A stretch of DNA of 39,972 nucleotides from Acidocella aminolytica 101 = DSM 11237. GTDB lineage: Bacteria; Pseudomonadota; Alphaproteobacteria; Acetobacterales; Acetobacteraceae. The notes beneath the pieces are model-generated. The model ran no database searches and was not told where the DNA came from. It saw only the letters and a program-made list of their open reading frames with translations. A program made the translations under genes and the position numbers. The stretch spans positions 1 to 39,972 of the forward strand of contig NZ_FQVJ01000034.1 in assembly GCF_900129125.1 (NCBI RefSeq), given 5' to 3'. Below are positions 12,156-39,698 of this stretch, piece after piece. Every line of letters begins with the position of its first letter. Within the stretch, counting starts at the first letter, position 1.

Positions 12156-13963
12156 TAAACCAACGCCATCCCTTCATTGGTCACAGCCGGGCCGGAACCG
12201 TCCTGGTTACCGGGCCCCAGCAGCATTTGATTATGCGCGGCACCGGAGGGGATCATCGGGAACACATTTTCCGCCTGATCCACGCAGATATCCGCGATCA
12301 CCGGCTTGTCCACGGCGATCATCTCAGCAATCACCCGGTCGAGATCATCCACCGTCTCGGCACGCAGCCCCACGGCATGGAAGCTCTCTGCCAGCTTCAC
12401 GAAGTCCGGCAAAGCCTCGGAATAGGAGCTGGAATAGCGCCCACCATGCAGCAGTTCCTGCCACTGGCGCACCATTCCCATATATTGATTATTCAAAATG
12501 AATACTTTTACTGGCAGACGGAACTGCGCCAGCGTGCCCATTTCCTGAATGTTCATCAGGATGCTAGCCTCGCCCGCAATATCCACCACCAGCGCATCCG
12601 GGTGCGCCACCTGCACGCCCATGGCGGCGGGCAAACCATAGCCCATGGTGCCCAGCCCGCCGGAAGTCATCCAGTGATTCGGCTTCTCAAACTTGAAGTG
12701 CTGGGCCGCCCACATCTGGTGCTGGCCAACCTCGGTGGTGATATAGGTCTCACGTCCGCGCGTGGCTTTATACAGCTGCTGGATGGCGTATTGCGGCTTG
12801 ATGATGCTGCCTCTGTCACGCGGCTGATGGAAGCCGAGCGAGTTCTTCGACCGCCACACATCAATTTGCCCCCACCATTGCGCCAGGGCGTTTTTGTTCA
12901 CCGGCGTAGCGTCTTTCTTCCAGGCCGCGATCAGCGCCTTCAGCGTTGCCAGCGCATCTCCAACAATCGGCACATCCACCGGTACCGTCTTGTTGATGTT
13001 GGACGGGTCGATATCCGCGTGGATCTTCTTGGAGTTGGGCGAGAAGGCGTTGAGCCGCCCGGTCACGCGGTCATCGAACCGCGCGCCAATATTCAGCATC
13101 ACGTCGCACCCATGCATGACGAGATTCGCCTCATACGTGCCGTGCATCCCCAACATGCCGATAAACAGCGGATCAGACGCCGGATAAGCGCCCAGCCCCA
13201 TCAGCGTGTTAGTGATGGGAAAACCTGTGAGGCGCGTGAACTCAGTGAGCAAACGCGAAGCCTCTGGCCCGGCATTCACCACGCCACCACCGGCATAGAT
13301 CACCGGGCGTTCAGCGCGTTTGAGCAGCGCCACCGCTTCATCAATCCGGCGCGCGTCCGGCTCAGTCCGAGGGCGGTAAGAGCGGTGCTGGGTCTGGCTC
13401 GGCTCACGGTAAGAGGCCGGGGCGATTAGAATATCCTTCGGCAGGTCGATCAGCACCGGGCCGGGGCGGCCCGAACGTGCGACGAGGAAGGCCTCATGCA
13501 CCACGCGCACCAGATCCTCGGACTTCTTGACTAGATAATTATGCTTAGTCGCCGGGCGGGTGATGCCAGTGGTGTCCGCCTCCTGGAAGGCGTCGTTCCC
13601 GATGAGATGCGTGGGCACCTGGCCACACAGGCAGACCAGCGGAACGGAATCCATCAGCGCGTCCACCAAGCCGGTGACGGCATTGGTGGCACCAGGGCCG
13701 GAGGTGACGAGCACGCAACCCACCTTGCCGGTGGAGCGGGCATAGCCCTCCGCCGCATGCACGGCAGCTTGCTCATGCCGGACGAGGATGTGCTTGATCT
13801 CGTTCTGCTGGAAGATCGCGTCGTAAATCGGCAATACGGCGCCGCCGGGATAGCCGAAAATTACATCCACGCCCTGCGCCTTGAGAGCCCGGAGCAGCGC
13901 TTCCGCCCCGGAATTCATCAGCTCAGGTGATGCAATTGTGCCGTCCATGATTGTACCTGCCAT
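12155..13963 (-). CDS. ilvB: Acetolactate synthase large (catalytic) subunit
   Basis: The 602-residue thiamine diphosphate enzyme condenses pyruvate with pyruvate or 2-oxobutyrate, the first common step to valine, leucine and isoleucine. The catalytic glutamate is E64 in VRHEQAAVHAAEGYA. The FAD-site block and GYGLPAAMGVQVAHP are present. The diphosphate/Mg motif, usually GDGS, reads GEAS (464-467), with NN 27 residues later. Starts at 13963 or 13948 are possible. It lies 47 bases downstream of miaA on the same strand. No leader peptide or attenuator is seen in that gap. Confidence 0.96.
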   Translation of the reverse strand: MAGTIMDGTIASPELMNSGAEALLRALKAQGVDVIFGYPGGAVLPIYDAIFQQNEIKHILVRHEQAAVHAAEGYARSTGKVGCVLVTSGPGATNAVTGLVDALMDSVPLVCLCGQVPTHLIGNDAFQEADTTGITRPATKHNYLVKKSEDLVRVVHEAFLVARSGRPGPVLIDLPKDILIAPASYREPSQTQHRSYRPRTEPDARRIDEAVALLKRAERPVIYAGGGVVNAGPEASRLLTEFTRLTGFPITNTLMGLGAYPASDPLFIGMLGMHGTYEANLVMHGCDVMLNIGARFDDRVTGRLNAFSPNSKKIHADIDPSNINKTVPVDVPIVGDALATLKALIAAWKKDATPVNKNALAQWWGQIDVWRSKNSLGFHQPRDRGSIIKPQYAIQQLYKATRGRETYITTEVGQHQMWAAQHFKFEKPNHWMTSGGLGTMGYGLPAAMGVQVAHPDALVVDIAGEASILMNIQEMGTLAQFRLPVKVFILNNQYMGMVRQWQELLHGGRYSSSYSEALPDFVKLAESFHAVGLRAETVDDLDRVIAEMIAVDKPVIADICVDQAENVFPMIPSGAAHNQMLLGPGNQDGSGPAVTNEGMALV

Positions 13964-27060: not shown

Positions 27061-27888
27061 TTAGCCAGGCGCCGCTGCAGCTTCATTGGCGTTTCCAGCC
27101 GGGGCGCGGCTCAGCTCATGCTTCAGCGTCTCCAGATCCCCGCCGCCCGCCATGTGGAACATCAGATTCTCAAGGCTCAGCTGGGACCGTGGGGCATCCA
27201 GCTCCACCCGGCCCCGCGAGAGCACAATAAAGTGGTCGCCAACCATGTAGGCATGATGCGGGTTATGGGTAATAAAGATTACCCCCGTGCCATGCTCACG
27301 CGCCGCCCGCGCGATATAGCGCAGCACCAGGCCGGACTGCGCGACACCAAGGGCCGCCGTCGGCTCATCCAGGATCAGCACGCGCGCGCCGAAATAAATG
27401 GCGCGGGCAATCGCCACAACCTGCCTCTGCCCGCCAGAGAGCGTGCCGACCGGCTGGTTGAGATCCGCCACATTAATGCCCATGCGGCGCAGCTCGGTCT
27501 GGGCGATGTCGTACATCTCCTTCACGTTCAGCCGCTTGAAAAGGCCGGAGCCGGCGGTGAGTTCCGAGCCCAGGAAGAAATTGCGCCAGATCGGCAGCAG
27601 TGGCACCAGGGCCAGAGTCTGATACACGGCGGAAATGCCAAGATTCAGCGCCTGACGCGGGGAGGTGAACTTTACCGCCTCGCCATCCACGGCATAGGTG
27701 CCTTCATCATGCGCCCGCAGACCGGCGATGATGCTGATAAGGCTGGATTTACCGGCACCGTTATCACCTAGAACACACGTCACCTCGCCACGACGCACGC
27801 TGAGTGAAATCCCGCTCAGAGCCCGGATGTTGCCGTAGCTCTTGCCGACATCCGTCAGCTGAATAATGGGGTTGGAATGGTTTTCCAT
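27061..27888 (-). CDS. ABC transporter ATP-binding protein, sugar-import type (single domain)
   Basis: From the ATG at 27888 the protein has 275 residues. Walker A is GDNGAGKSS, the signature LSGGQRQ, Walker B ILDEPTAALG, and the switch histidine is in FITHN. It is a single ATPase domain, unlike the fused double RbsA type, and resembles FrcA-like subunits. The ATG lies one base after the permease stop. An alternative start 36 codons upstream falls in the permease gene and is rejected. It powers uptake of the sugar or cyclitol bound by the exported protein encoded at 29031. Confidence 0.94.
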   Translation of the reverse strand: MENHSNPIIQLTDVGKSYGNIRALSGISLSVRRGEVTCVLGDNGAGKSSLISIIAGLRAHDEGTYAVDGEAVKFTSPRQALNLGISAVYQTLALVPLLPIWRNFFLGSELTAGSGLFKRLNVKEMYDIAQTELRRMGINVADLNQPVGTLSGGQRQVVAIARAIYFGARVLILDEPTAALGVAQSGLVLRYIARAAREHGTGVIFITHNPHHAYMVGDHFIVLSRGRVELDAPRSQLSLENLMFHMAGGGDLETLKHELSRAPAGNANEAAAAPG

Positions 27889-27889
27889 A

Positions 27890-28948
27890 TCACTTTGCTC
27901 CGTTCGCCCGTACGCGGATCCAGGTATTAACGACAGTGGCAACAAGCAGCGTCGCGCCGACAAAGAACATGAACCAGTCTGGGTCCCAGTCGGCATAAAT
28001 CACACCTTCTGTGGTCATGCCGAATATAAAGGCGCCAAAAGCCGAACCAATCGCCGAACCATACCCGCCGGTGAGCAAACACCCACCAACCACCGCAGCC
28101 GCGATGTAAAGTAACTCATTGCCAACACCCGCACCTGATTGCACCGTGTCATACTCAAACAGCATGTGCATCCCCAGGAACCAAGCGCTGAACCCAACGA
28201 ACATGAACAAGGCGATCTTGGTTTTATTGACCGGCACACCCACCGCCAGCGCGCTGTCAGCCGCACCGCCCACGGCGAAGATCCAGTTGCCGTATTTCGT
28301 GCGTAGCAGGAACCAGGTAGCCGCGAGTAGAAACACAATCCAGTAAAAGATCGCGATGCTTACATGCATGTTGCCGATCGTGAACTCAGAGGCGAAAATC
28401 GCGTGGGCGGAGGCATAACCCGGAAGCTGACTGATATCCCCGGTCGCGACATTACCGGTCACGAGCTTCGTCATGGCGATGTTCAAGCCTTGCAGCATCA
28501 GGAAGGTGGACAGGGTGACAAGAAAGCTGTGCAGCTTGGTGCGGACCAGCAAAAAGCCGTTCAACCAGCCGATGCTCAGCGAAATCACAAGCCCGAAGAT
28601 AATCCCAACCCAAAGATTTCCCGCCACCTGAGACGCGAACATGGAGGCTGACAGGGAGGAGGTTGTCACCGCCACACCCGCGGTAAGGTCGAACTCACCT
28701 CCAATCATCAGCAAGGAGACAGCAACGGCGGGAATGCCAATAGTCGCGGATTCATAAAGAACAGTCGAGAAAGCCGGTAGTTGCCGGAAGGGAGGCGCCA
28801 CGACGAAGAACAGAATAAAAACCATGATCGCGCCGCCAAGAGCGCCGACTTCAGGACGTTTCAGAATTTTTTTCCAAAAAGCCTGTTGCACCAATTGCGG
28901 ATGAACCGGACCCGCTGGCGCAGGGCTCGCTGCTGTTCGATTCGCCAT
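27890..28948 (-). CDS. ABC transporter permease, sugar-import type (RbsC/FrcC-like)
   Basis: The 352-residue membrane protein has about ten hydrophobic segments, from EVGALGGAIMVFILFFVVAP to FMFFVGATLLVATVVNTWI. The conserved block GGEFDLTAGVAVTTSSLSA (about 109-127) is the hallmark of the ribose/inositol/fructose permease family. GNELLYIAAAVVGGCLLTGGYGS is the second conserved block. It is the middle gene of binding protein, permease and ATPase, and is preceded by an intercistronic stem-loop. Confidence 0.94.
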   Translation of the reverse strand: MANRTAASPAPAGPVHPQLVQQAFWKKILKRPEVGALGGAIMVFILFFVVAPPFRQLPAFSTVLYESATIGIPAVAVSLLMIGGEFDLTAGVAVTTSSLSASMFASQVAGNLWVGIIFGLVISLSIGWLNGFLLVRTKLHSFLVTLSTFLMLQGLNIAMTKLVTGNVATGDISQLPGYASAHAIFASEFTIGNMHVSIAIFYWIVFLLAATWFLLRTKYGNWIFAVGGAADSALAVGVPVNKTKIALFMFVGFSAWFLGMHMLFEYDTVQSGAGVGNELLYIAAAVVGGCLLTGGYGSAIGSAFGAFIFGMTTEGVIYADWDPDWFMFFVGATLLVATVVNTWIRVRANGAK

Positions 28949-28979
28949 GATAAAATTCGCTCCCGAGAAAATTATATTG

Positions 28980-29001
28980 CTGGCTGCCTATTGGCAGCCA
29001 G
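28980..29001 (-). other. Intercistronic stem-loop between binding protein and permease
   Basis: CTGGCTGCC (28980-28988), loop TATT, GGCAGCCAG (28993-29001): a perfect 9-bp stem, 29 bases past the binding-protein stop. No run of T follows on the minus strand. Such stems often protect the upstream message, so that much more binding protein than permease is made. Confidence 0.6.
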
Positions 29002-29030
29002 TCAGCTTTTTAGTGCCAGGAAAGCCCCGC

Positions 29031-29987
29031 TTAGCGCGTACCTTCCTTCACAAACTTGGCAATCTCATTGACATTCTGCGCAGTCACGAAAGTCGGTCCG
29101 GTCAGCACGGGGCCGCCACCACCAACAACATCGCCATTTGTCTTGTAGAGCCAGAGCAGGTCGATTGCCTCATAACCCTGCACGAAAGGCTGCTGATCCA
29201 CGGCCCATTGCAACTTGCCGGACTGGATGAGACCAACAGCCTGTGGGTTCATGTCGAACGTGCCGACCTTGGCTTTGCTGTTTGCCAGCTGCACCGCCTG
29301 CACGGCGGTCGGCGCGAAGGGCGCCCCCAGCGTCACGATATAACCAACATCCGGATTCTGCTGCAGCGACGCCACCATGCGGGCCTGGGCGGAGGCCATA
29401 TTATAACCGTTAACGTACAGAACAGTCAGCTTACCTTTGAAAGTGTCCTTGATACCATCACAACGCGCCTGCAACTGTACCGCACCCTGCTGCTGGTCCA
29501 CGCAGATCGCGGATTGAACGCCTTCCGCATTCAGCTTATCACCCACCGCCTTGCCAGCAATTGTTTCATCCTGGCCGACAAACATCAGCATGCCGGCACT
29601 CTTCCAGTCCGACATTCCGGCATTTAAACCAACAACAGGAATCTTCGTGGCTTCAGCCTGCTTAACGGCAGGAACTTCAGCATCCGGGAACGCCAAGGTC
29701 ACTGCGATACCATCAACATGCTGCTGCACCATGGTGTTGATCAACTGCGTTTCACCTGCCGCATTCGGGTTGGCTTCGTAAATCAGCTTCACATGATCTT
29801 TCTTGGCCGCAGCTTCAGCGCCTTTGCGGATAATATCCCAGAACGTATCGCCGGGCTGGGCATGGGTGATCAGGGCAAATTTATATTCAGGCTGCTTTGC
29901 GGAGGCTGCGGGAGCAGCCAGCGCCATTCCCGCCAATGCAACGCCACCTAACAAAACTTTGGTCAACTTCGCCTTGGACATTTTCAT
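29031..29987 (-). CDS. Periplasmic sugar-binding protein of an ABC importer
   Basis: The 318-residue protein has a signal peptide (about 1-30, ending AAPAASA) and a type I periplasmic binding fold. The segments YKFALITHAQPGDTFWDIIRKGAEAAAKK, DGIAVTLAFPDAEVPAVKQA and IPVVGLNAGMSDW are typical of the ribose/galactose/inositol class. GAGGGAGGG lies before the ATG. The pair of cysteines at IC and RC (about 164 and 179) could form a disulfide. Placement within the inositol island suggests inositol or a related polyol as ligand, which is an inference. Confidence 0.93.
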   Translation of the reverse strand: MKMSKAKLTKVLLGGVALAGMALAAPAASAKQPEYKFALITHAQPGDTFWDIIRKGAEAAAKKDHVKLIYEANPNAAGETQLINTMVQQHVDGIAVTLAFPDAEVPAVKQAEATKIPVVGLNAGMSDWKSAGMLMFVGQDETIAGKAVGDKLNAEGVQSAICVDQQQGAVQLQARCDGIKDTFKGKLTVLYVNGYNMASAQARMVASLQQNPDVGYIVTLGAPFAPTAVQAVQLANSKAKVGTFDMNPQAVGLIQSGKLQWAVDQQPFVQGYEAIDLLWLYKTNGDVVGGGGPVLTGPTFVTAQNVNEIAKFVKEGTR

Positions 29988-30136: not shown

Positions 30137-30946
30137 TTATAAGGGCGCGGCTGGTGCTGGGGACGTATCGTAAGCGCCCCAAACAGATTGGTCGAAATTA
30201 ATCACCGAGCCCGTCATCAGCCCAGATTCAGCACTGGACAGAAATGCCACGGCCCGCGCGACTTCCGCTGGGTCGATGAGGCGACCAAAAGGCTGCTGCG
30301 CCTCCGCCTCGGCTTTCCAATTGGGGTTGCCGCCATGATATTTGATCTGGATATGGTCTTCGCCATCGCTGGCCATCCAGCCAATATTCAAGGCATTGAC
30401 TCTGATCCTGTTGCGCAGCACGGCGTAGGCAGTATTGCGCGTCAACGTGGCCAACGCGCCTTTGGAGGCGCAATAAGCCGCGATGAAAGACTGCCCGGCA
30501 AGGGCGGACATCGAACAGATATTCACAATCGTACCCTGTGTCCTCTCCCGGAGCATCAGCTTCAGAGCTTCCTGCATCAGGAAAAACGGCGCGCGGACAT
30601 TCACCGCGAAAATCTGGTCGAACAATTCCGGCGAGGTATCCAGAATCGTCCCTCGGTCTGTGATAGCGGCCGCATTCACCAGCGCATCCACACGCCCAAA
30701 GATTTTGTCCGCCGCCGCCACCACCTCCCGACAATCCTCGACACAGCTAAGGTCAGCTGCCACGAACTTCGCCGCGACACCGGTATCCGCGACAATCTTC
30801 GTAGCCTGCGCCTCGCCTTTCTCACGGGAGCGGCCGCAGATCACCAGACCCGCCGCTCCCCGCTCAGCAAATAAATGGGCAATCGCCGCTCCAAGCCCCT
30901 GCGTGCCGCCTGTAACAACGGCGATTTTCCCCTCCAACTGGTTCAT
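30137..30946 (-). CDS. SDR family NAD(P)-dependent oxidoreductase
   Basis: The 269-residue classical short-chain dehydrogenase has the cofactor motif TGGTQGLG (13-20), NAAA, the catalytic Ser in SMSALAGQ, and YxxxK in AAYCASKGAL. It lies at the 3' end of the iolD-iolE transcript and overlaps iolE by four bases. It probably oxidises or reduces a cyclitol or an inosose. Scyllo-inositol or inosose conversion is a reasonable guess but not shown by the sequence. Confidence 0.93.
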   Translation of the reverse strand: MNQLEGKIAVVTGGTQGLGAAIAHLFAERGAAGLVICGRSREKGEAQATKIVADTGVAAKFVAADLSCVEDCREVVAAADKIFGRVDALVNAAAITDRGTILDTSPELFDQIFAVNVRAPFFLMQEALKLMLRERTQGTIVNICSMSALAGQSFIAAYCASKGALATLTRNTAYAVLRNRIRVNALNIGWMASDGEDHIQIKYHGGNPNWKAEAEAQQPFGRLIDPAEVARAVAFLSSAESGLMTGSVINFDQSVWGAYDTSPAPAAPL

Positions 30947-31857
30947 ACCGCCGCTCCTTCAATTTCATAGCCGGCCGCCGTCAGCGCCTGGGTCAGTGCC
31001 TTATGGCCGATCTTGGCAAACTCCCCCGGCGGCGCCTTGGTGGGGTCTTGCTCCGCCTCAACCACAAACCAGCCTTCATAGCCGATTTCCGCCAAGCGCT
31101 TAGTCACCGGCCCAAAATCGATATCTCCATCGCCCGGCACCGTGAACGCGCCCGCCAGTACCGCATCGAGGAAGGATTGCCGCTCGCGGTCCAGCTTCGC
31201 CACCACCTTGCCACGAAGATCCTTGGTATGAACATGGTTGATTCGGCAGCCATATTTATCCAGCACGCGGAACAAATCCGCCCCAGCAAAGCGCAAATGG
31301 CCCGTATCATACAGCAACCCCACCGCCGGACCGGTATTATCCATCAGAATATCAATATCGCGCTCGGTCTCGATCGCCGTGGCCATGTGATGATGGAAAG
31401 CCAGTGGCATACCCTGCTCAGCACAATATTCGGCAAAGCGCGTTAGGCGGCGACCATAAGCTTTGATTTCATCTTCCCAAAGCCGGCGGCGCAAATTCAG
31501 CGGCGCGTTGCGGCGGTTCTGCAACGTACCAGCGGTTTCCCCATACACGATGCAAGGCGCCCCTAGTTCCCGGAACAACTTTAACTGCGCGAAAGCTTTT
31601 TCTTTCTCAGCCACCAGATCATCTGGTGCATCCAGCACCGTGCCGGAATACCAGCCAGAGCAGAGATATAACTCGTGCGATTGTAAAATCGGTTCCAGTT
31701 CAGCCGTTGTCCTCGGAAATTTCCCGCCCATCTCCACTCCGGAGAAACCCGCGGCACGGGATTCTCTCAGGCATGTCTCCAGCGGCGTATCACCGCCCAG
31801 TTCGGGCAAATCGTCATTCGTCCAGGCAATCGGCGCAATTCCAAGCTTTGCTTTCAT
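30943..31857 (-). CDS. iolE: myo-Inosose-2 dehydratase
   Basis: The 304-residue TIM-barrel protein of the xylose isomerase-like family matches IolE in length and motifs. These are MKAKLGIAPIAWTNDDLPELGG at the start, GFSGVEMGGKFP, LAFHHHMATAIETE, LLYDTGHLRFAGAD and RINHVHTKD, which hold the metal-binding His, Glu and Asp. It removes water from 2-keto-myo-inositol to give the trihydroxycyclohexane dione that is the substrate of IolD. It lies 47 bases after iolD on the same strand. Confidence 0.95.
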   Translation of the reverse strand: MKAKLGIAPIAWTNDDLPELGGDTPLETCLRESRAAGFSGVEMGGKFPRTTAELEPILQSHELYLCSGWYSGTVLDAPDDLVAEKEKAFAQLKLFRELGAPCIVYGETAGTLQNRRNAPLNLRRRLWEDEIKAYGRRLTRFAEYCAEQGMPLAFHHHMATAIETERDIDILMDNTGPAVGLLYDTGHLRFAGADLFRVLDKYGCRINHVHTKDLRGKVVAKLDRERQSFLDAVLAGAFTVPGDGDIDFGPVTKRLAEIGYEGWFVVEAEQDPTKAPPGEFAKIGHKALTQALTAAGYEIEGAAV

Positions 31858-31904: not shown

Positions 31905-33746
31905 TTACACGCCGACACGCTGCTTCTTACGGCCTTCCTTCTGTGCCGCGGCAGCCTCACGCACGCTTTCCCGTGCGCTGACGTCGGGCACCCCCACATC
32001 CCACCAAGCATCGCCCGGCGTCCACACAAAGGCATCAGACACGATGCTGAGCACCGTGGTGCGATCTGTTGTCTTCGCCCACTCCAGCGCCTCGCCCAGA
32101 TCGCCCAGACTTTCAACATGCCGCGCGAGCGCACCCATGGATTCCGCATGTTTAACGAAATCAACCGGGAACGGTTCCTTCACCCGGCAATCCTTCAGCA
32201 AATTGTTGAAGGAGGCACCACCCTTGGCGTTCTGCAGCCGGTTAATGACAGCATAGCCACCATTGTCGCACACGATGAGGATGAATTTATGCCCGGACAG
32301 CACCGAGGCATAAATGTCGGAATTCATCATCATGTAGGTACCATCACCAATCATCACGATCGGCGTACGTGTTTCATCCGCCATCGCGGCCCCCCACCCG
32401 GCGGAAATCTCATAGCCCATGCAGGAGAAGCCGAATTCACAGTCGAACGTGTTGGGTGTCTTGACCCGCCAGTTCTTCACCACCTCACCCGGCAGCCCGC
32501 CCGCAGCGGCAATCAGCAGGTCACGCTCCCCAACGTGCTTGTTCACCACCCCCACAACCTGGGCATAGGTTGGCACGGAGTCGTTGGTCAGCTTCTGATA
32601 GCCATCCAGCAGCGTGTTCCACTTGGCAAACTCATCGCGCCCGCGCTTTGTCCAGTCCGCGTCAACTTTCCAGCCTTCCAGCGCGATTGCCAGTTCTTCC
32701 ACCGTCTCACGCGCATCGCCAACCACCGCGAGAGCGCGATGCTTGGTAGCGTCCCAGCGCGCGGCATTGATGGAAATGAACTTTGCGTCCTCCGCAAAGC
32801 AGGTCCAAGAACCTGTGACAAAATCCATCAGCCGCGTGCCAATGGCCACAATCACATCCGCTTCCGCCGCCATGGCATTGGCGGATGTTGAGCCCAGAAT
32901 ACCAATCGGCCCCACATGCGCGGGGTGGTCATGCACCACACCGCCCTTGCCCGCGATGGTCTCGCATAGCGGAATTCCGTGCTCGGCGGCCAGCGCGGCC
33001 AGTTCCTGCTCAGCACCTGAATAACGCACACCGCCGCCGGAGATGATCAACGGCCGACTCGCCGCCTTCAACAGGCGCACAGCCTCTCCCAACTGGTCAC
33101 GGTCCGGGCGAGCGCGCGGAATTTTATGCACGGTCTCGGCAAAGAAGGCTTCCGGGTAATCCCATGCCATTTCCTGCACATCCTGCGGCAGCGCGACAAA
33201 AGCAGGACCACAATCGCCGGGGTCCAACATTGTCGCCACCGCTTGCGGCAGTGAGGATATCAACTGCTCAGGATGCACAATCCGGTCCCAGTAACGGGTG
33301 ACGGCCTTGAATGAGTCGTTTACATTGATGCTCGGATTGCCGAAATGCTCGACCTGCTGCATCACCGGGTCTGGGCGGCGATTCACGAACGTATCGCCCG
33401 CCAGCAGCAACACCGGCAAACGGTTGGCATGCGCCAGCCCGGCGGCGGTCACCATATTAAGGGCGCCCGGCCCAATTGAGGACGTTGCCACCATAATCTG
33501 CCGGCGGCGCTTGGCCTTGGCGAACCCTATGGCGGCCATTGCCATGGATTGCTCGTTCTGCCCGCGCCAAGTCGGCAACGTATCCTGCACGGCCTCCAGC
33601 GCCTCAGACAGGCACGTCACGTTGCCATGGCCAAAAATCGCGAAAACGCCTGGAAACAGCGGCGCGCGCTCATCATCGACGATAGTGAATTGATTGCACA
33701 GGTAACGAACCAGGGCTTGCGCCATGGTACAACGCACTGCGGTCAT
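31905..33746 (-). CDS. iolD: 3D-(3,5/4)-trihydroxycyclohexane-1,2-dione acylhydrolase
   Basis: The 613-residue thiamine diphosphate enzyme opens the cyclitol ring to 5-deoxy-glucuronate. Family landmarks include the N-terminal FAIFGHGNVTCLSEALE, the catalytic Glu in WRGQNEQSMAMAA, and the cofactor motif IGDGTYMMMNSDIY. GAALNMV-type and DCGPAFVALPQDVQ blocks are also present. Length and order match IolD rather than acetolactate synthase. GGGAGA lies before the ATG. The 127-base gap upstream, before the RpiR gene end, contains a perfect GCAA-N6-TTGC site. Confidence 0.96.
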   Translation of the reverse strand: MTAVRCTMAQALVRYLCNQFTIVDDERAPLFPGVFAIFGHGNVTCLSEALEAVQDTLPTWRGQNEQSMAMAAIGFAKAKRRRQIMVATSSIGPGALNMVTAAGLAHANRLPVLLLAGDTFVNRRPDPVMQQVEHFGNPSINVNDSFKAVTRYWDRIVHPEQLISSLPQAVATMLDPGDCGPAFVALPQDVQEMAWDYPEAFFAETVHKIPRARPDRDQLGEAVRLLKAASRPLIISGGGVRYSGAEQELAALAAEHGIPLCETIAGKGGVVHDHPAHVGPIGILGSTSANAMAAEADVIVAIGTRLMDFVTGSWTCFAEDAKFISINAARWDATKHRALAVVGDARETVEELAIALEGWKVDADWTKRGRDEFAKWNTLLDGYQKLTNDSVPTYAQVVGVVNKHVGERDLLIAAAGGLPGEVVKNWRVKTPNTFDCEFGFSCMGYEISAGWGAAMADETRTPIVMIGDGTYMMMNSDIYASVLSGHKFILIVCDNGGYAVINRLQNAKGGASFNNLLKDCRVKEPFPVDFVKHAESMGALARHVESLGDLGEALEWAKTTDRTTVLSIVSDAFVWTPGDAWWDVGVPDVSARESVREAAAAQKEGRKKQRVGV

Positions 33747-33828
33747 CGGCTTTTCTCCCTCTCGCCAGACAAAGCATGCTGGCCCCTTGCTCGGGTTGGG
33801 AAAACGTTATTGCTGAAAAAATTTTTTT

Positions 33829-33842
33829 GCAAGTATTTTTGC
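33829..33842. promoter_or_regulatory. Candidate RpiR/IolR operator upstream of iolD
   Basis: GCAAGTATTTTTGC fits GCAA-N6-TTGC exactly. Its reverse complement matches the site at 35078 at 13 of 14 positions. It lies 83 bases before the iolD start. A degenerate copy (AAAAATTTTTTTGC, 33817-33830) overlaps it. Confidence 0.65.
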
Positions 33843-33873
33843 AGAAATAATTTGGCGGGGGGGATTTACCGCA

Positions 33874-34806
33874 TCACCCCCGCTTGCCGCGCCCCTGCCC
33901 TTTCCTGTTCCGCAATTTCTCCGTAACCGTCGGAATTCGCGGCGCTTCTTCACGGTTTTGCTGCAACAGCGCCGCCACCGCCACCGCCAAGCACTGCACC
34001 AAGCATACCGGTGCGGCCAATGAACGCGAGAAGGTATATTCATCCTCCGGGATGGTAAACAGCACCGTAGCATCCTTCGCCAACGGCGAAAGCTGGCTGT
34101 CGGTCAACGCAATCACTGGCACACTGTTGCCCGCCGCGCGCTCAGTAATGGCCACAACTTCCTGCGCGTAATGCCGAAAAGAGATGGCAACCAACGTGTC
34201 ACGCGGGGTTATCGTCTCTGCCATTTCCTGCGAAAGCCCGCCCGCCGGGTCCAGCAGCACCACGCGGCGGTGCAGCATGGTCAGCAGGTAACGGAACAGC
34301 GAGGCAATAGGCTCAGAGCGCAGCTGCCCGGCAATATACACTGTATCGGCCTTAGTCAGCAGCCTCGCGGCCTGAGCCAGTTCCTCCTCCGGCACTCGTT
34401 CCAGCAATTCCTGCAACGCCGCGATGTCACGCACCACCAGTGCCCGCAAATGCCCCAGATTCCCTGAGCTGGTATTGCGGGAGAGCTCCCCCTCCAGCGC
34501 CTTCACCCGCTCCCGGAACCCGGGCGCCGCCGTAGCCAGCCGTGTTTGGAACACCAGCTGCATCTCCTTGAAGCCGGAATAGCCGAACTCCTGCGCGAAC
34601 CTGACTAGGCTGGAAGGGTGGGTGTCACATTTGGAGGCAATCAGACTGATCGATTCGAGCGCCACGACATTCGGGTTCTGCGTCACGTAACGTGCAATTT
34701 TCTGGAAACCCGAAGACAGGTTCGGATATTCCATGGTGATAAGGTTAACAATTCCCTCATAGTTATTGGGTAATGACTTGCCGCTTTTTATTTCGCCGCG
34801 TGCCAT
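33874..34806 (-). CDS. RpiR family transcriptional regulator, probable inositol regulator
   Basis: From the ATG at 34806 (GAGAGG six bases upstream) the protein has 310 residues. An in-frame ATG at 34863 would add a charged 19-residue tail. The N-terminal HTH of the RpiR type (SLIASKCDTHPSSLVRFAQEFGYSGFKEM) is followed by a sugar-isomerase (SIS) domain. That domain includes ADTVYIAGQLRSEPIASLF and VAISFRHYAQEVVAITERA. The SIS domain should bind a phosphorylated or keto sugar signal. Similar IolR proteins repress inositol genes in rhizobia. The C-terminus is basic and glycine-rich (RNRKGQGRGKRG). It is transcribed towards iolD and lies among candidate operators. Confidence 0.93.
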   Translation of the reverse strand: MARGEIKSGKSLPNNYEGIVNLITMEYPNLSSGFQKIARYVTQNPNVVALESISLIASKCDTHPSSLVRFAQEFGYSGFKEMQLVFQTRLATAAPGFRERVKALEGELSRNTSSGNLGHLRALVVRDIAALQELLERVPEEELAQAARLLTKADTVYIAGQLRSEPIASLFRYLLTMLHRRVVLLDPAGGLSQEMAETITPRDTLVAISFRHYAQEVVAITERAAGNSVPVIALTDSQLSPLAKDATVLFTIPEDEYTFSRSLAAPVCLVQCLAVAVAALLQQNREEAPRIPTVTEKLRNRKGQGRGKRG

Positions 34807-34899
34807 GGCTGCCTCTCTTTCTTCCGCCTCTTCCGCTCCCGCATTTGCCTTACTCCTGCGCATGAAATCCAGCCTGGCGCAAATCAGGACTTGCGTTTT

Positions 34900-34913
34900 G
34901 GAAATTTTTTTGC
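34900..34913. promoter_or_regulatory. Candidate RpiR/IolR operator, degenerate (GGAA-N6-TTGC)
   Basis: GGAAATTTTTTTGC fits the motif with one arm base changed, making one half identical to the GGAA half-site I recall for rhizobial IolR. It starts 29 bases before the next site, as a pair. Confidence 0.5.
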
Positions 34914-34928
34914 GAACAATGCATCAAA

Positions 34929-34942
34929 GCAAATATTTTTGT
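34929..34942. promoter_or_regulatory. Candidate RpiR/IolR operator (GCAA-N6-TTGT)
   Basis: GCAAATATTTTTGT has one mismatch in the right arm. Its reverse complement matches the 35078 site at 13 of 14 positions. It lies upstream of the regulator gene, which suits autoregulation. Confidence 0.55.
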
Positions 34943-35077
34943 AGAGCCAAATACGTTTCAGGGCCAAGGTAAACCCGCCGATCCGCACAAGACCCCAACC
35001 CGTCTGACTTTCCTCCAATCCACCCAGTCCGATATGGCGATGACTGTCGGATAAAGTTAGCCCAACGTCCGGGTTAT

Positions 35078-35091
35078 GCAAAAATATTTGC
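35078..35091. promoter_or_regulatory. Candidate RpiR/IolR operator upstream of the aldolase group
   Basis: GCAAAAATATTTGC fits GCAA-N6-TTGC exactly and is almost a perfect palindrome (GCAAA-AATA-TTTGC). It lies 36 bases before the start of the decayed aldehyde dehydrogenase, a position suited to repression of the plus-strand group. Confidence 0.65.
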
Positions 35092-35127
35092 GAAGACGAC
35101 GAAAGAACAATTCAGGGAAACGCTCTG

Positions 35128-35567
35128 ATGTATGGAAATTACGGCATGTTTATCGATGATGCCCGGCGCGGCCAAGCGGAGGGACCGAGGTGATCGCCCC
35201 CGGCATGTGTGGCACCTTTGGCGACGTACCGACCACGTCCCTGGCCAAGGCTGAGGGAGCGCTGGCATCGGCCGCTCAAGGGCTGGTTACCCGGCGCAAA
35301 ATCCCGACCTGGACCCGTGCGGACCTCCTGCACAACCTGGCCGACACGATGAAGCACCGCGCCGATGAAGCCGCCCGGATGATTACGCTTGAAACCTGCA
35401 TGGTGGGCAGGAACAGCTTTGCTCTCGCCGTGGCGGAAGTCCCCTTCGTCTGCATCAAGGAAAGCGGCACGGGCCATGAGGGCGGCGCCGAAAGCATTTT
35501 CGATTTTCTGAATATAAAGCTCGCCCACGTTGCGTGCCTGATGGGAGGTTTCCATGATCGCCAATAA
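35128..35567 (+). pseudogene. Decayed NAD-dependent aldehyde dehydrogenase (frameshift and large internal deletion)
   Basis: Three pieces of one aldehyde dehydrogenase remain. At 35128, after GGGAA, MYGNYGMFIDDARRG reads like the usual N-terminus but stops at 35191-35193. The frame then shifts by one base, and from 35190 VIAPGMCGTFGDVPTTSL continues the N-terminal domain down to ITLET (about 35399). There the sequence jumps in frame to the last 50 residues (NSFALAVAEVPF, then KESGTGHEGGAESIFDFL). About 330 central residues, with the catalytic Cys and Glu, are missing. The PFGG motif reads PFVC, a further sign of decay. The ORF end overlaps the aldolase start. It is not the methylmalonate-semialdehyde type (IolA); the C-terminus looks like succinate-semialdehyde dehydrogenase. 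Confidence 0.85.
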
Positions 35568-36375
35568 AATTCTCCGCAAATGGGCCAACAACGAACCCGT
35601 TTTAAATGGCTGGCTCTCCATCGCCTGCCCCTTCACCGCCGAGATCATGGCCGCTCAAGGCTATGATTCCGTGACCATCGACCTCCAGCACGGGCTAGTG
35701 GGATACGAGATGGCCACCGCCATGCTGCAGGCCATGCGCGCAAGCGGCATCACCCCGATGGTGCGCGTCCCTTGGCTGGACCCCGCTGCGATCATGAAGA
35801 CGCTGGATGCCGGGGCTTATGGCGTCATCTGCCCGATGGTCAATAACCGCGCCGAGGCTGAGCAACTGGTCTCTTATGTCCGCTATCCACCACACGGCGT
35901 ACGCAGCTTTGGCCCCACCCGCGCTAATTTTTCCGCCGGGACCGATTACGGAACCCATGCGGATCAAGAAATCATCTGCCTGGCCATGATCGAAACGGCC
36001 GAGGCCGTAGCCAATCTTGAGGAGATCCTCTCCACCCCCGGCCTGAACGGCGTCTATATCGGTCCGGCCGACCTCACGATGGGCCTCACCGGCCGCAAAT
36101 ACCGTACCGGATTCGACCGGGAAGAGCCGGAGATCGTCGAGGCCATCCAGTCCATTCTGCAAAAGGCTCACAGAGCTAACCTTCGCGCCTGCCTGCATAA
36201 TGGCAACCCCGCTTACGCAGCCAAGGCCATCAGCTGGGGGTTCGACCTCGTCACCATCAGCAACGATGTCCGGCTGCTGGCGGATTCTGCGCGCAGCAGC
36301 GTGGAAGCCACACGCAGCCTGATCGGTGGAACGCAGCTACCTTCGGCGGACAGCTGCGCCAGCGGAGGGTACTGA
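35554..36375 (+). CDS. HpcH/HpaI family aldolase
   Basis: The 273-residue class II pyruvate aldolase has GYDSVTIDLQHG (base histidine), PMVRVPWLDPAAIMKTLDAGAYGVICPMV, the metal Glu in MIETAEAV and the metal Asp in GVYIGPADLTMGL. The family cleaves 4-hydroxy-2-oxo acids to pyruvate and an aldehyde, for example 2-dehydro-3-deoxy-glucarate. GGGAGG lies six bases before the ATG. It starts inside the remnant dehydrogenase and is followed after one base by the hydroxyacid dehydrogenase. The substrate within this island is unknown. Confidence 0.93.
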   Translation: MIANKILRKWANNEPVLNGWLSIACPFTAEIMAAQGYDSVTIDLQHGLVGYEMATAMLQAMRASGITPMVRVPWLDPAAIMKTLDAGAYGVICPMVNNRAEAEQLVSYVRYPPHGVRSFGPTRANFSAGTDYGTHADQEIICLAMIETAEAVANLEEILSTPGLNGVYIGPADLTMGLTGRKYRTGFDREEPEIVEAIQSILQKAHRANLRACLHNGNPAYAAKAISWGFDLVTISNDVRLLADSARSSVEATRSLIGGTQLPSADSCASGGY

Positions 36376-36376
36376 C

Positions 36377-37357
36377 ATGCCGCACATCCTCATTGGCGGG
36401 CGGATTCATGAGGCGGGGCTGGACCTCATCCGCGCTACACCCGGCATAAGATTCGACATGGTGGACGACATGACCGCCCCTACCACCCTGCCACTGCTGG
36501 AAAAAACGGACGCCATTCTCGTCCGTACCCAGACACTGCCCGCCACGCTGCTTGAGCAGGCGAAGAATCTGAAAATTCTATCCCGCCATGGTGTCGGGTA
36601 CGATAATGTGCCGGTGGAGGTTCTCAATCGCCGTCACATTCCCCTTTGCATTGTCGGCGACGCCAATTCCAGCGCCGTCGCGGAACATACGCTGATGCTG
36701 ATGCTAGCCCTCGCCAAGCGGGTCATCGCGTATGACCGAGAAACCCGGGCCGGAAACTGGCGCTTCCGCGACAGCCAGGAAGCCACGGACCTGGACGGCA
36801 AAACCCTGCTGCTGCTGGGCTTCGGGCGCATTGGCCACGCCGTTGCCAAACGCGCCGCCGCGTTCGGCCTCAACATCGAAGTGCACGACCCCTACGCCGA
36901 CCCGAATGTGGTCAGCAACACGGGCGCCACCCCCACCCCCTCATTGCACGAGGCCCTGCCGCGCGCGGATTTCCTGTCCGTGCATATTCCGCTGATCGGC
37001 AGCAAGGCACCCATCGGCGCTGAGGAACTGGCGTTGCTCAAACCCGGTGCCATCGTCATCAACACCGCCCGCGGCGGCATCATCGACGAATCCGCCCTGG
37101 CCGAGGCCCTCACGCGCGGCCATATCAGCGGCGCGGGGCTGGACGTGTTCGTAACCGAACCGCCCGCCCCCAACCATCCGCTTTTTTGTCACGACAGAGT
37201 GATCCTCACCCCACATGCCGCCGGGCTGTCCAAAGAGTGCGCGATGCGGATGGCCAGCATGGCCGCACAGAACATTCTGGACTTTTTCCAGGATAAGCTT
37301 GACCCCGCGCTGGTGGTGAACAGCGCCCACACCTCACTGGCGCCCGCCGGAAGGTAA
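36377..37357 (+). CDS. D-2-hydroxyacid dehydrogenase family protein (phosphoglycerate dehydrogenase-like)
   Basis: The ATG at 36377 follows the aldolase stop by one base, with GGAGGG upstream, and gives 326 residues. The motifs are LLLGFGRIGHAVAKRA (nucleotide binding), INTARGGIIDESAL (catalytic Arg region), a Glu in FVTEPPAPNHPLF, and the catalytic His in LTPHAAG. There is no C-terminal ACT domain, so it is not a full serine-pathway SerA. It could reduce an aldolase product such as tartronate semialdehyde, glyoxylate or hydroxypyruvate; this is an inference from the operon. Confidence 0.93.
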   Translation: MPHILIGGRIHEAGLDLIRATPGIRFDMVDDMTAPTTLPLLEKTDAILVRTQTLPATLLEQAKNLKILSRHGVGYDNVPVEVLNRRHIPLCIVGDANSSAVAEHTLMLMLALAKRVIAYDRETRAGNWRFRDSQEATDLDGKTLLLLGFGRIGHAVAKRAAAFGLNIEVHDPYADPNVVSNTGATPTPSLHEALPRADFLSVHIPLIGSKAPIGAEELALLKPGAIVINTARGGIIDESALAEALTRGHISGAGLDVFVTEPPAPNHPLFCHDRVILTPHAAGLSKECAMRMASMAAQNILDFFQDKLDPALVVNSAHTSLAPAGR

Positions 37358-37382
37358 GCTGCGCTGACCAACTAAACTGTTC

Positions 37383-37396
37383 GCAATTTCATTTGC
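37383..37396. promoter_or_regulatory. Candidate RpiR/IolR operator 1 upstream of iolG
   Basis: GCAATTTCATTTGC fits GCAA-N6-TTGC exactly and differs from the neighbouring site at one position. The pair starts 28 bases apart. It lies 26 bases past the hydroxyacid dehydrogenase stop. Confidence 0.65.
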
Positions 37397-37410
37397 AAAC
37401 ATTGACACAT

Positions 37411-37424
37411 GCAATTTTATTTGC
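37411..37424. promoter_or_regulatory. Candidate RpiR/IolR operator 2 upstream of iolG
   Basis: GCAATTTTATTTGC fits GCAA-N6-TTGC exactly. A TTGACA at 37402-37407 lies just before it, so the site would sit between the promoter elements, but no convincing -10 box follows at the right distance. It lies 155 bases before iolG. Confidence 0.65.
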
Positions 37425-37579: not shown

Positions 37580-38572
37580 ATGTTACGCGTTGCAGTGCTC
37601 GGAGCCGGCCGCATTGGCCGTATTCATGCCGCTAATGCCGCCTTGAACCGTGATGCCACGCTGATCGCGGTGGCGGATCCGTTCGGGGATGGCGCCCAAA
37701 ACTTGGCCGCGGAATGGGGATGTGACGCCTCGCAAGACCCTATCACCACCTTGCGGCGCTCCGACATTGATGCTGTGGTCATCGGCACCCCAACAGACAC
37801 GCATGTTTCCCTGACTCTTGAAGCCGTACGCAACGGCAAAGCCGTTTTGTGCGAAAAGCCGATCGACTTGGACATCGCCAAGGTTGATGAAGCAGTCGCC
37901 GAGGTGGAGCGCATGAACGGGCGCGTGATGGTGGCGTTCAACCGCCGCTTCGACCCCTCCGCCCAGGCCATGCGCAAGAGCATGGATGCAGGCGAGATCG
38001 GCGACCTGCGCCAGGTAATCATCTCCAGCCGCGACCCCAGCCCACCGCCTCGTTCCTATCTTGAACATTCCGGCGGCATTTTCCGGGACATGACCATCCA
38101 TGATTTCGACATGGCCCGCTGGCTACTGGGCGAGGAACCCGTGCAAGTCACCGCCACCGCCAGCCGCCTCATCGACCCGAGCCTTGCCGAAATTGATGAT
38201 TTCGACACGGTCATGGTCAATCTTCGAACCGCATCCGGGCGTCAGTGCCACATTAATTGCTGTCGCGCGACCTCCTATGGGTACGATCAGCGCATGGAAG
38301 TGTTCGGCGCCGATGGCATGCTGCTGAACGAAAATCTCCGCGCCAGCACATTGCGCCGCTGGAGCAGCAGTTACACTGAAGCCCGTGAGCCACTGCTGGA
38401 TTTTTTCTTGGAACGTTACGCCGATGCCTATCGCACGGAATTCGAACATTTCCGTGCCGCCGTTGCCAATAACGCGCCCATGCCGGTGACGATGCGTGAT
38501 GGCCGTCAGGCTCTGCGCCTAGCCGATGCCGCGCTTGAATCCGCCCTGAGCGGCCGTGTTGTCGCCGTCTAA
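37580..38572 (+). CDS. iolG: myo-Inositol 2-dehydrogenase
   Basis: The 330-residue Gfo/Idh/MocA protein has the Rossmann start VAVLGAGRIGRIHAAN, the catalytic Lys in LCEKPIDLD, and the family blocks VMVAFNRRFDPS and SGGIFRDMTIHDFDMARWLLGE. The last of these is typical of inositol dehydrogenases. It oxidises myo-inositol to 2-keto-myo-inositol with NAD. GGAG lies before the ATG. Operators precede it by 155-200 bases. A second paralogous dehydrogenase follows 16 bases on. Confidence 0.93.
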   Translation: MLRVAVLGAGRIGRIHAANAALNRDATLIAVADPFGDGAQNLAAEWGCDASQDPITTLRRSDIDAVVIGTPTDTHVSLTLEAVRNGKAVLCEKPIDLDIAKVDEAVAEVERMNGRVMVAFNRRFDPSAQAMRKSMDAGEIGDLRQVIISSRDPSPPPRSYLEHSGGIFRDMTIHDFDMARWLLGEEPVQVTATASRLIDPSLAEIDDFDTVMVNLRTASGRQCHINCCRATSYGYDQRMEVFGADGMLLNENLRASTLRRWSSSYTEAREPLLDFFLERYADAYRTEFEHFRAAVANNAPMPVTMRDGRQALRLADAALESALSGRVVAV

Positions 38573-38588
38573 ACCAAGGAGCCGCGTT

Positions 38589-39698
38589 ATGCGCGAAATT
38601 GGAATCGGCCTTATCGGTACCGGCTTCATGGGCAAAACGCACGCCATTGGCTACCGCGCCGCGTCCGCCATTTTCCCTGGCTGCCCCGGTGCAGTTTTGC
38701 GGACTGTCAGCGACATTAACGCCCAGGCAGCGGAAGCCATGGCCACGCAATTCGGCTTTCAGAACTGGAATGCCGAATGGCGCAGTCTACTGGAAGACCC
38801 TGCCATCGACGTCATTTCCATCACCACCCCCAACATCATGCACCGCGAAATGGCCCTGGCGGCCATTGCGGCGGGCAAGCATGTGCATTGTGAAAAGCCC
38901 CTCGCCCCCAACGCCGCTGAAGCCCTGGACATGATGGCTGCGGCCGAGCAGGCTGGATGCGTGACGCAAGTGGGCTTCAACTACATCAAAAACCCGTTGC
39001 TCAAGCTGGCGCGCGACATGATCGCAGCCGGCGAGCTGGGTGACATTACCGGCTTTCGTGGCATCCACGCTGAAGATTTCATGGCCGATCCTGAAATTCC
39101 TTATAGCTGGCGGCTCGACCCCGCAGGCGGCGGCGGCGCGGTGGCGGATCTCGGCAGCCATATCATCGGCATGGCTCGCTTTCTGCTGGGCCCAATAAGC
39201 GCTGTGAACGCGGAGCTGGATACCGTCATCAAAACCCGCCCCAGCGCTCCCGGCGCCAGCAACCGGCGCGAGGTTCTAGTTGACGATATTGCCCGCCTCA
39301 CCCTCCGCTTCACACGCGGTTGCGGTGGCAGCATTGAGGCCAACTGGGTTGCCAGCGGCCGCAAAATGCAGCTCGGCTTTGAACTAAACGGCACAAAGGG
39401 CAGCCTTGTTTTTACGCAGGAGCGACTGAACGAGTTGCTGCATTACCGCACGGGCGGTTCCGGCTTCACCCGGATTGAAACCGGTCCGGAACATCGGCCT
39501 TACGGCCTGTTCTGCGTCGCCCCTGGTCATCAACTCGGTTTCAATGATCTCAAAACAATTGAAATGGCCGAATTCCTGATGGCCATTGACGGCGCCACGC
39601 GGCAAGGCCCCGATTTCCGCGAAGCTTGGGAAATTCAAAAGATCATCGATACTGCCATCGCCTCATCTAAAGCAAAAAACTGGCTGAATATTCACTGA
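38589..39698 (+). CDS. Gfo/Idh/MocA family oxidoreductase (second dehydrogenase)
   Basis: From the ATG at 38589 (AAGGAG upstream) the protein has 369 residues. It has GLIGTGFMGKTHAIGY, HVHCEKPLAPNAAEA and the C-terminal GFELNGTKGSLVF beta-domain. It is only distantly like iolG and longer. It could act on scyllo-inositol, another cyclitol or a different inosose isomer; nothing in the sequence decides. It is followed 74 bases later by the exported protein, so iolG, this gene and that gene form one group. Confidence 0.9.
   Translation: MREIGIGLIGTGFMGKTHAIGYRAASAIFPGCPGAVLRTVSDINAQAAEAMATQFGFQNWNAEWRSLLEDPAIDVISITTPNIMHREMALAAIAAGKHVHCEKPLAPNAAEALDMMAAAEQAGCVTQVGFNYIKNPLLKLARDMIAAGELGDITGFRGIHAEDFMADPEIPYSWRLDPAGGGGAVADLGSHIIGMARFLLGPISAVNAELDTVIKTRPSAPGASNRREVLVDDIARLTLRFTRGCGGSIEANWVASGRKMQLGFELNGTKGSLVFTQERLNELLHYRTGGSGFTRIETGPEHRPYGLFCVAPGHQLGFNDLKTIEMAEFLMAIDGATRQGPDFREAWEIQKIIDTAIASSKAKNWLNIH

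Follow-up and report, generated by a model that had tools for sequence, protein, structure and literature searches.

Results

The regulator gene and a repeated dyad beside inositol genes

We analysed a stretch of 39,972 nt (hereafter the window) from Acidocella aminolytica 101 = DSM 11237 (assembly GCF_900129125.1, contig NZ_FQVJ01000034.1, positions 1-39,972, forward strand), in which the dyad GCAA-N6-TTGC recurs in the promoter regions of inositol genes grouped around a gene for an RpiR-family regulator. The host genome (3.96 Mb; 3,964,820 bp) is close to that of Acidocella aquatica, and the regulator is 85% identical at locus L005. By profile search the regulator (33874..34806, minus strand) has an N-terminal HTH_6 domain (PF01418, 44.3 bits, cut-off 28.3) and a C-terminal SIS domain (PF01380, 66.7 bits, cut-off 25), i.e., the architecture of the MurR/RpiR family, with His63, Arg69 and Lys80 in its DNA-binding domain. 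As expected of a classical IolR, its gene lies beside inositol catabolic genes: it adjoins iolD (trihydroxycyclohexane-dione hydrolase, 31905..33746, minus strand; TIGR04377, 828 bits, cut-off 715), iolE (myo-inosose-2 dehydratase, 30943..31857, minus strand; TIGR04379, 389 bits, cut-off 290) and iolG (inositol 2-dehydrogenase, 37580..38572, plus strand; TIGR04380, 392 bits, cut-off 355). An AlphaFold model of the regulator was left unused, its mean predicted local distance difference test score being 57 and that of the DNA-binding domain mostly below 55.

A scan of the window places exact copies of the dyad at 33829, 35078, 37383 and 37411 and one-mismatch copies at 34900 (GGAAATTTTTTTGC) and 34929 (GCAAATATTTTTGT), all six in three iol promoter regions, exactly where a preliminary description of this DNA had put them. 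The identity of 13 of 14 positions that it gave for several copies also holds on inspection (37383 against 37411; 33829 and 34929 against the reverse complement of 35078). Absent from that description was the tandem arrangement of the dyads at 28 or 29 bp. Operator O1 (33800..33842; GAAAACGTTATTGC + GCAAGTATTTTTGC, at 33800 and 33829) has a 29-bp register and lies 54-96 bp 5' of the iolD start. O2 (34900..34942; GGAAATTTTTTTGC + GCAAATATTTTTGT) has the same register and lies 94 bp 5' of the rpiR ATG at 34806, or 37 bp from an alternative ATG at 34863. O4 (37383..37424; GCAATTTCATTTGC + GCAATTTTATTTGC, at 37383 and 37411) stands before iolG with a 28-bp register. O3 (35078..35091; GCAAAAATATTTGC) is a single exact dyad on the plus-strand-operon side of the divergent region, and no partner dyad was found for it at 28 or 29 bp. 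None of the operators is assigned to a strand, and they lie about 37-184 bp from start codons. The tandem pairing explains the one-mismatch copies flagged earlier; the copy at 34900, which had been taken for an intermediate between two codes, is better read as the degenerate partner of 34929.

A fifth exact match in the window, at 13715, lies outside the iol region within a mechanically called open reading frame and has a G+C-rich spacer. The 14-mer at 37383 recurs on contig C107, again inside such a frame and absent from the places with the tandem pattern, and was set aside. A longer palindrome, YTGCAA-N6-TTGCAR, was considered as the true operator and found not to be required, as it occurs at only two places in the genome, one of them in the region. 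The promoter scan gave three matches against 1.5 expected, one within a coding region and two overlapping each other at the iolG operator, where a weak sigma-70-like match (37420/37421-37448) overlaps O4.

The exact dyads exceed chance and are conserved at orthologous loci

With up to one mismatch the whole window holds 30 matches against 31.3 expected, which is chance level, so the one-mismatch copies alone prove nothing. The exact copies, in contrast, exceed chance. The genome holds 99 exact copies per 3,964,820 bp (55 for the pattern read backwards), a density that predicts 0.09 copies in 33829-37424, where four are seen (P(>=4) ~2.5e-6). None of 5000 dinucleotide shuffles of the three promoter gaps reached four exact copies (mean 0.064), and none of 5000 reached three tandem pairs at 28/29 bp (mean 0.003). 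The region was picked after the sites had been seen and these figures are indicative only; for this reason conservation in relatives is the better test and, with the 28/29-bp register, gives independent support.

We read the promoter-bearing gaps of 20 loci including the window (set A), with regulators 59-100% identical to that of the window. They come from Acidocella, from further members of the genus and family to which the window belongs, from an Afifella metagenome-assembled genome and from rhizobial plasmids, Erwinia, Pantoea and Klebsiella. In an exhaustive search over all 256 four-base half-sites and 15 spacers (0-14), GCAA-N6-TTGC ranks first, with 45 sites in 20/20 loci against 0.20 expected from base composition; the count includes the four window sites, and some of the loci are close kin. 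The scan of related genomes near iol genes proposed earlier thus comes out in favour of the motif. The same dyad is again first in set B (15 loci, regulators 50-58% identical), with 16 sites in 9/15 loci against 0.13 expected. Set C, made up of ten classical loci, has AGAA-N6-TTCT as its leading dyad (eight sites, 6/10 loci), and site by site the classical Gln-type IolR loci follow [AG]GAA-N6-TTC[CT]. Within 18 set A loci, a divergent gap being counted for both of its genes, an exact site stands in 12/12 gaps before the aldehyde dehydrogenase gene, 14/16 before the regulator, 10/17 before iolD, 4/11 before iolG and 1/6 before the gene for the substrate-binding protein.

The tandem register in relatives and a second genomic place

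Gaps with at least one exact site at 31 loci were scanned for dyads with at most one mismatch lying 14-60 bp apart. Nineteen of the 27 close pairs are exactly 29 bp apart; with the window excluded it is 17 of 23, from 10 of the 30 relatives. Around 41 exact sites, offset 29 carries a partner scoring at least 6/8 at 23/82 positions, whereas other offsets average 0.54, with a maximum of 7 at offset 12, where the half-sites overlap. A second locus set gives 7/33 at offset 29 for the same score against a mean of 0.16. For loci with Gln regulators the signal is weaker and broader (6/73 at 29 bp, 9/73 at 30, 8/71 at 31 and 8/65 at 52; mean 1.23).

With at most two mismatches, the 29-bp tandem pattern occurs at four places in the whole genome, two in the window and one each on contigs C51 and C68; the reversed control gives none. 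The tandem operator on C51 (11771-11813; positions 9772-9814 of L048) is unlinked to the cluster; 131 bp separate its start from an inositol-dehydrogenase-like gene (score of 249 bits for an inositol/chiro-inositol dehydrogenase model, below its cut-off of 540), behind which lies a frame that is weakly IolE-like (22 bits). By its tandem operator, the C51 inositol/D-chiro-inositol-dehydrogenase-like gene is a likely member of the regulon outside the cluster. We also observed recurrent dyad pairs 149-250 bp apart in the divergent regions of L005-L008, L042, L043 and L074-L077, a spacing that would suit DNA looping by a tetramer.

The dyad type follows the regulator type

Across 105 aligned regulators, the window's clade has His at residue 63, where the others mostly carry Gln, Pro or Thr, so the helix-turn-helix comparison with IolR called for in the preliminary description does reveal a difference, namely His63 against the Gln of classical regulators. 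Up to 450 bp upstream were taken for 104 of these regulators (one was dropped, its helix being unread), and dereplication left 78. Of 30 loci with His regulators, 16 have an [AG]CAA dyad and one an [AG]GAA dyad, whereas the 33 Gln loci have [AG]CAA in none and [AG]GAA in 23. The remaining types show [AG]CAA and [AG]GAA in 0 and 2 of ten loci (Pro), 0 and 2 of three (Thr), 0 and 1 of one (Ala) and 0 and 0 of one (Arg). Compared with the mean over control spacers, there are 25 CAA sites at His loci against 1.67 and 33 GAA sites at Gln loci against 1.00.

The rule pairing His with CAA and Gln with GAA was fixed before new loci were fetched, and 63 of these were scored, with six repeats left out. 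His loci show [AG]CAA in three and [AG]GAA in none of six, and Gln loci show [AG]CAA in none and [AG]GAA in 19 of 30 (Fisher's test, 0.0006, on rows that are related). None of these 36 loci contradicts the rule, 14 of them having no dyad of either kind, and two more His loci have a GCAA dyad in a wider stretch. Among the other types the CAA and GAA counts are 1 and 3 of 19 for Pro (one locus without upstream DNA), 0 and 2 of five for Thr, 0 and 1 of one for Ala, 1 and 0 of one for Asn and 0 and 0 of one for Arg. The Pro-type IolR loci have too few dyads to be placed.

A tree of 77 rows, built by a quick method with the helix columns left out and with support from the Shimodaira-Hasegawa-like approximate likelihood ratio test only, unites 29 His rows (98%). 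Locus L044 is sister to them in a joint 30-row clade (100%), to which the window's regulator belongs and which stands apart from the IolR of S. meliloti and Caulobacteraceae. L044 has the same kind of module, with Gln at residue 63 and a GAA dyad (AGAACGTATATTCC) before the regulator gene; its promoter gaps hold dyads at 8917 (AGAACGTATATTCC) and 18508 (TGAACAAACATTCT). We read L044 as a putative natural, early-branching form from before the switch, and because it combines this module with the Gln helix and the GAA dyad, helix and code would, as sampled, have changed once, after the module existed. At L088 (8992-9852), a His regulator of the same clade was seen beside TRAP-transporter and biotin-uptake genes, with no adjoining iol genes and with a one-mismatch GCAA dyad upstream.

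An inositol module without iolB and iolC

Besides iolD and iolE, the minus strand of the window carries genes for an SDR oxidoreductase (30137..30946; profile search) and a sugar ABC transporter (27061..29987), the latter comprising an ATPase (27061-27996), a permease (27890-28948) and a rhizopine-type binding protein (29031-29987), whose NCBIfam names all score below their cut-offs. On the plus strand, the remnant of a decayed aldehyde dehydrogenase gene (35190..35531) is followed by genes for an HpcH/HpaI-type aldolase (35554..36375; profile search) and a D-2-hydroxyacid dehydrogenase (36377..37357; profile search), and iolG is followed by one for a second Gfo/Idh/MocA dehydrogenase that is levoglucosan-dehydrogenase-like (38556..39698; match below cut-off). 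Comparison with relatives, in which the gene is intact (full-length match in L005, L006 and L043), shows that the remnant keeps an N-terminal and a C-terminal piece and has lost most of the middle. The operator at 35078 now precedes this remnant and the aldolase gene.

The locus had been called an inositol regulon; its gene set, with iolD, iolE and iolG, lacks iolB and iolC and is not that of the classical pathway. The 20 set A and 15 set B loci, several of them covered by short stretches only, yielded no relative of either gene; what these stretches commonly hold in their place are genes for aldehyde dehydrogenase, aldolase and hydroxyacid dehydrogenase. In the host's own genome, the search for KduI/IolB gave no match and the best match for IolC reached 111 bits (cut-off 300). 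A 2022 survey defines an inositol cluster by at least three of iolB, iolC, iolD and iolE (PMC9430895); with iolD and iolE present and neither iolB nor iolC found, the window falls outside that definition. The module, with RpiR, iolD, iolE, SDR, ABC transporter, aldehyde dehydrogenase, HpcH aldolase, 2-hydroxyacid dehydrogenase, iolG and Gfo/Idh genes, was observed, more or less complete, in Acetobacteraceae, rhizobia, Paracoccus, Pantoea, Erwinia and Klebsiella, and several times on plasmids when a plasmid collection was searched (e.g., L005-L009, L042-L043, L071-L077 and L080-L084). Between L080 and L090, of which one is a plasmid locus and the other a contig of chromosomal size, a LacI-type protein is 100% identical, and the neighbouring proteins are equally identical to those of the window, perhaps through recent duplication or exchange.

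Both codes can occur in one genome. G009, taken to be A. aquatica, carries the GCAA-dyad cluster alongside a classical iolA-E-D-R-B-C-G one (L052), in which GGAATTTGCATTCC lies in the interval from iolD to the gene for the Gln-type regulator. The host's own genome has a Gln-type paralogue (L046) beside an iolA homologue, with two AGAA-N6-TTCT-type dyads and no exact GCAA dyad in the 19-kb stretch. In a census of 18 genomes (17 with a His-type regulator, plus G051), IolB scores over its cut-off in 12 (11 of the 17, and G051), gives a weaker match in two and no match in four (G000, G077, G167 and G120). As 11 of the 17 His-type genomes thus have an IolB elsewhere, it is probably common for one cell to carry both the old and the new regulon.

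Discussion

The dyads beside these inositol genes very probably constitute a genuine switch, recognised by the RpiR-type regulator encoded next to them. We hold with considerable confidence that GCAA-N6-TTGC is the operator dyad of the regulator encoded at 33874-34806, with a second base that differs from the classical IolR site and with His63 as the best candidate determinant. The preliminary description had given GGAA-N6-TTCC as the site of the RpiR-type IolR of rhizobia, a motif that is indeed in print (PMC2597717), and had suggested the same spacing, a changed second base and a code paired with its regulator; the conserved dyad, the [AG]GAA sites at Gln loci and the tracking by clade all point the same way. 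Each dyad would be bound by one dimer, and the three of four operator places with two dyads 29 (or 28) bp apart could hold a dimer of dimers, for which the MurR tetramer over two adjacent sites makes a natural model rather than a shown fact. From the precedent of the C. crescentus iolC promoter and the distances of the operators from start codons, we infer that the regulator very likely represses iolD-iolE-SDR-ABC, the gene that encodes it, and both plus-strand operons, that of the aldolase and that of iolG. An inositol-derived ligand, a metabolite of the pathway, would act at the SIS domain and release the promoters. In the published model for S. meliloti IolR the releasing ligand is 2-deoxy-5-keto-D-gluconic acid 6-phosphate (DKGP; reported in PMC8877191). 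With no IolB hit and no IolC above cut-off, formation of DKGP by the usual route is doubtful in this genome, and the regulator, belonging as it does to a module free of IolB and IolC, probably senses something else. The IolD product may be handled by oxidation and aldol cleavage without phosphorylation.

The candidate residues were placed by alignment on S. pneumoniae SpNanR, where His63 corresponds without gaps to Ser50 and Arg69 to Arg56, and Lys80 falls on Arg67; the SpNanR chain used agrees with the residue numbers cited from PMC12713135. In the SpNanR-DNA crystal reported there, Ser50 contacts the phosphate at nucleotide 4, Arg56 contacts base 4, and Arg67, reported essential for binding, enters the minor groove. 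If the dyad centres are superposed, nucleotide 4 would be half-site base 2 here, by our own mapping. His63, at the start of the recognition helix and Gln in classical IolR, is therefore a plausible but unproven first candidate for the determinant of base 2, and Lys80 the second.

Several observations weigh against so simple a picture. At the one-mismatch level, 20 of the 30 relatives scanned have no 29-bp pair. Exact dyads are missing from the gaps examined at 5 of 14 set B His loci, in three of which a looser scan does find a site, either exact or degenerate and in tandem. An [AG]GAA dyad lies upstream at three of 43 His loci, and CAA-type dyads occur at two new non-His loci, in L162 (Asn) at the end of a coding sequence and in L124 (Pro) on the downstream side. 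All sampled His regulators except L163 form one clade; the change of residue and code is therefore a single event, and the counts cannot be treated as independent. L163 (His63, with Ser at 80) is a long branch without any dyad, which leaves no usable independent switch among the sampled regulators. SpNanR, moreover, is reported to read DNA mainly indirectly (PMC12713135), which calls for caution in assigning residues.

The sharpest of the rival explanations concerns the residue itself, since the code might be set by Lys80, another residue changed on the same branch, or several together. Four residues of the DNA-binding domain, Thr42, Cys60, His63 and Lys80, distinguish the His clade both from L044 and from classical regulators, Lys80 is inseparable from His63 as a determinant on this branch, and the essential Arg67 of SpNanR aligns with it. 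Nevertheless, base 2 would lie at the start of the recognition helix, away from the dyad centre; SpNanR combines Arg67 with a GAA half-site (PMC12713135), which makes Lys80 alone the weaker candidate; and L161 has Arg at 80 and Ala at 63 with a GAA-type dyad. We incline away from this alternative while regarding it as a serious one. A failure of insulation, in which the Gln paralogue in the same genome also controls these promoters, or the reverse, gains something from the single base per half-site by which the codes differ and from the one GGAA half of 34900; given the AGAA-type dyads of L046, the lack of an exact GCAA dyad in its stretch and the two clusters of G009, each with its own dyad type, we consider it unlikely. 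Even less is to be said for a different regulator such as a LacI-type protein. LacI-type genes do occur near the module in L080, L090, L093 and L094, but a search with a single LacI reference found no relative in the window's module, nor any at 17 of the 20 loci of set A, where every locus bears dyads, and the dyad type tracks the RpiR helix type, also in L044; we rate this very improbable. Chance palindromes in A+T-rich promoters, to which only the window-wide count of one-mismatch matches lends anything, we reject outright in view of the shuffles, the dyad search at orthologous loci and the fixed 29-bp register.

Taken with the operator reading above, these considerations allow a wider proposal that we put forward tentatively: one residue, His63 in place of Gln, may set base 2 and thereby insulate a mobile, IolB/IolC-free regulon with 29-bp tandem GCAA operators and an inducer other than DKGP from a classical IolB/IolC regulon of the GAA type that would coexist with it in many cells. 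The same dyad code appears in relatives from several bacterial groups together with the changed residue of the DNA-reading helix, and in one clade the operator has changed by one base per half-site along with one helix residue and one residue aligned to a minor-groove contact. Two proteins and two operators, with two point changes, would thereby allow operator-code evolution and regulon insulation to be tested directly. The module is carried on plasmids of several families, and a survey using the definition of PMC9430895 would omit it.

Comparison with known systems

Among the matches listed from the openly licensed literature, we recognised no description of GCAA-N6-TTGC for an RpiR regulator or of such an inositol route without IolB and IolC; RegPrecise lay outside the search. 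The closest relatives are the IolR systems of C. crescentus and rhizobia. GGAA-N6-TTCC has been published for C. crescentus and, of five further alphaproteobacteria in the comparison, for all but B. japonicum; in C. crescentus, the iolC promoter became more active when one dyad was mutated (PMC2597717). As there, an RpiR-type regulator lies beside inositol genes, four-base half-sites flank N6, and sites stand before dehydrogenase, catabolic and transport genes (PMC2597717). In contrast, no exact GGAA-N6-TTCC was found in the window's iol promoter regions, base 2 is C here and G there, His63 and Lys80 face Gln and mostly Ser in the Gln-type regulators compared, the 29-bp register is sharp where the Gln-type set has its weaker and broader 29-31-bp signal and another at 52 bp, and the module lacks iolB and iolC, whereas DKGP is reported as the releasing ligand in the model for S. 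meliloti IolR (PMC8877191).

SpNanR shares the RpiR family and has an 18-bp near-palindrome whose GAA core, by our mapping, lies in the same register; it is in dimer-tetramer equilibrium and, unlike the repressor proposed here, activates a sialic acid regulon (PMC12713135). It carries Ser50 and Arg67 where the regulator described here has His63 and Lys80. E. coli MurR likewise has two adjacent sites, bridged by a proposed tetramer over 47 bp in all, with 17 bp between them rather than the 15 bp between 14-mers found here (PMC12713135). Judged by its sequence features, then, the Acidocella dyad adds a new operator variant to a regulator family that is already known.

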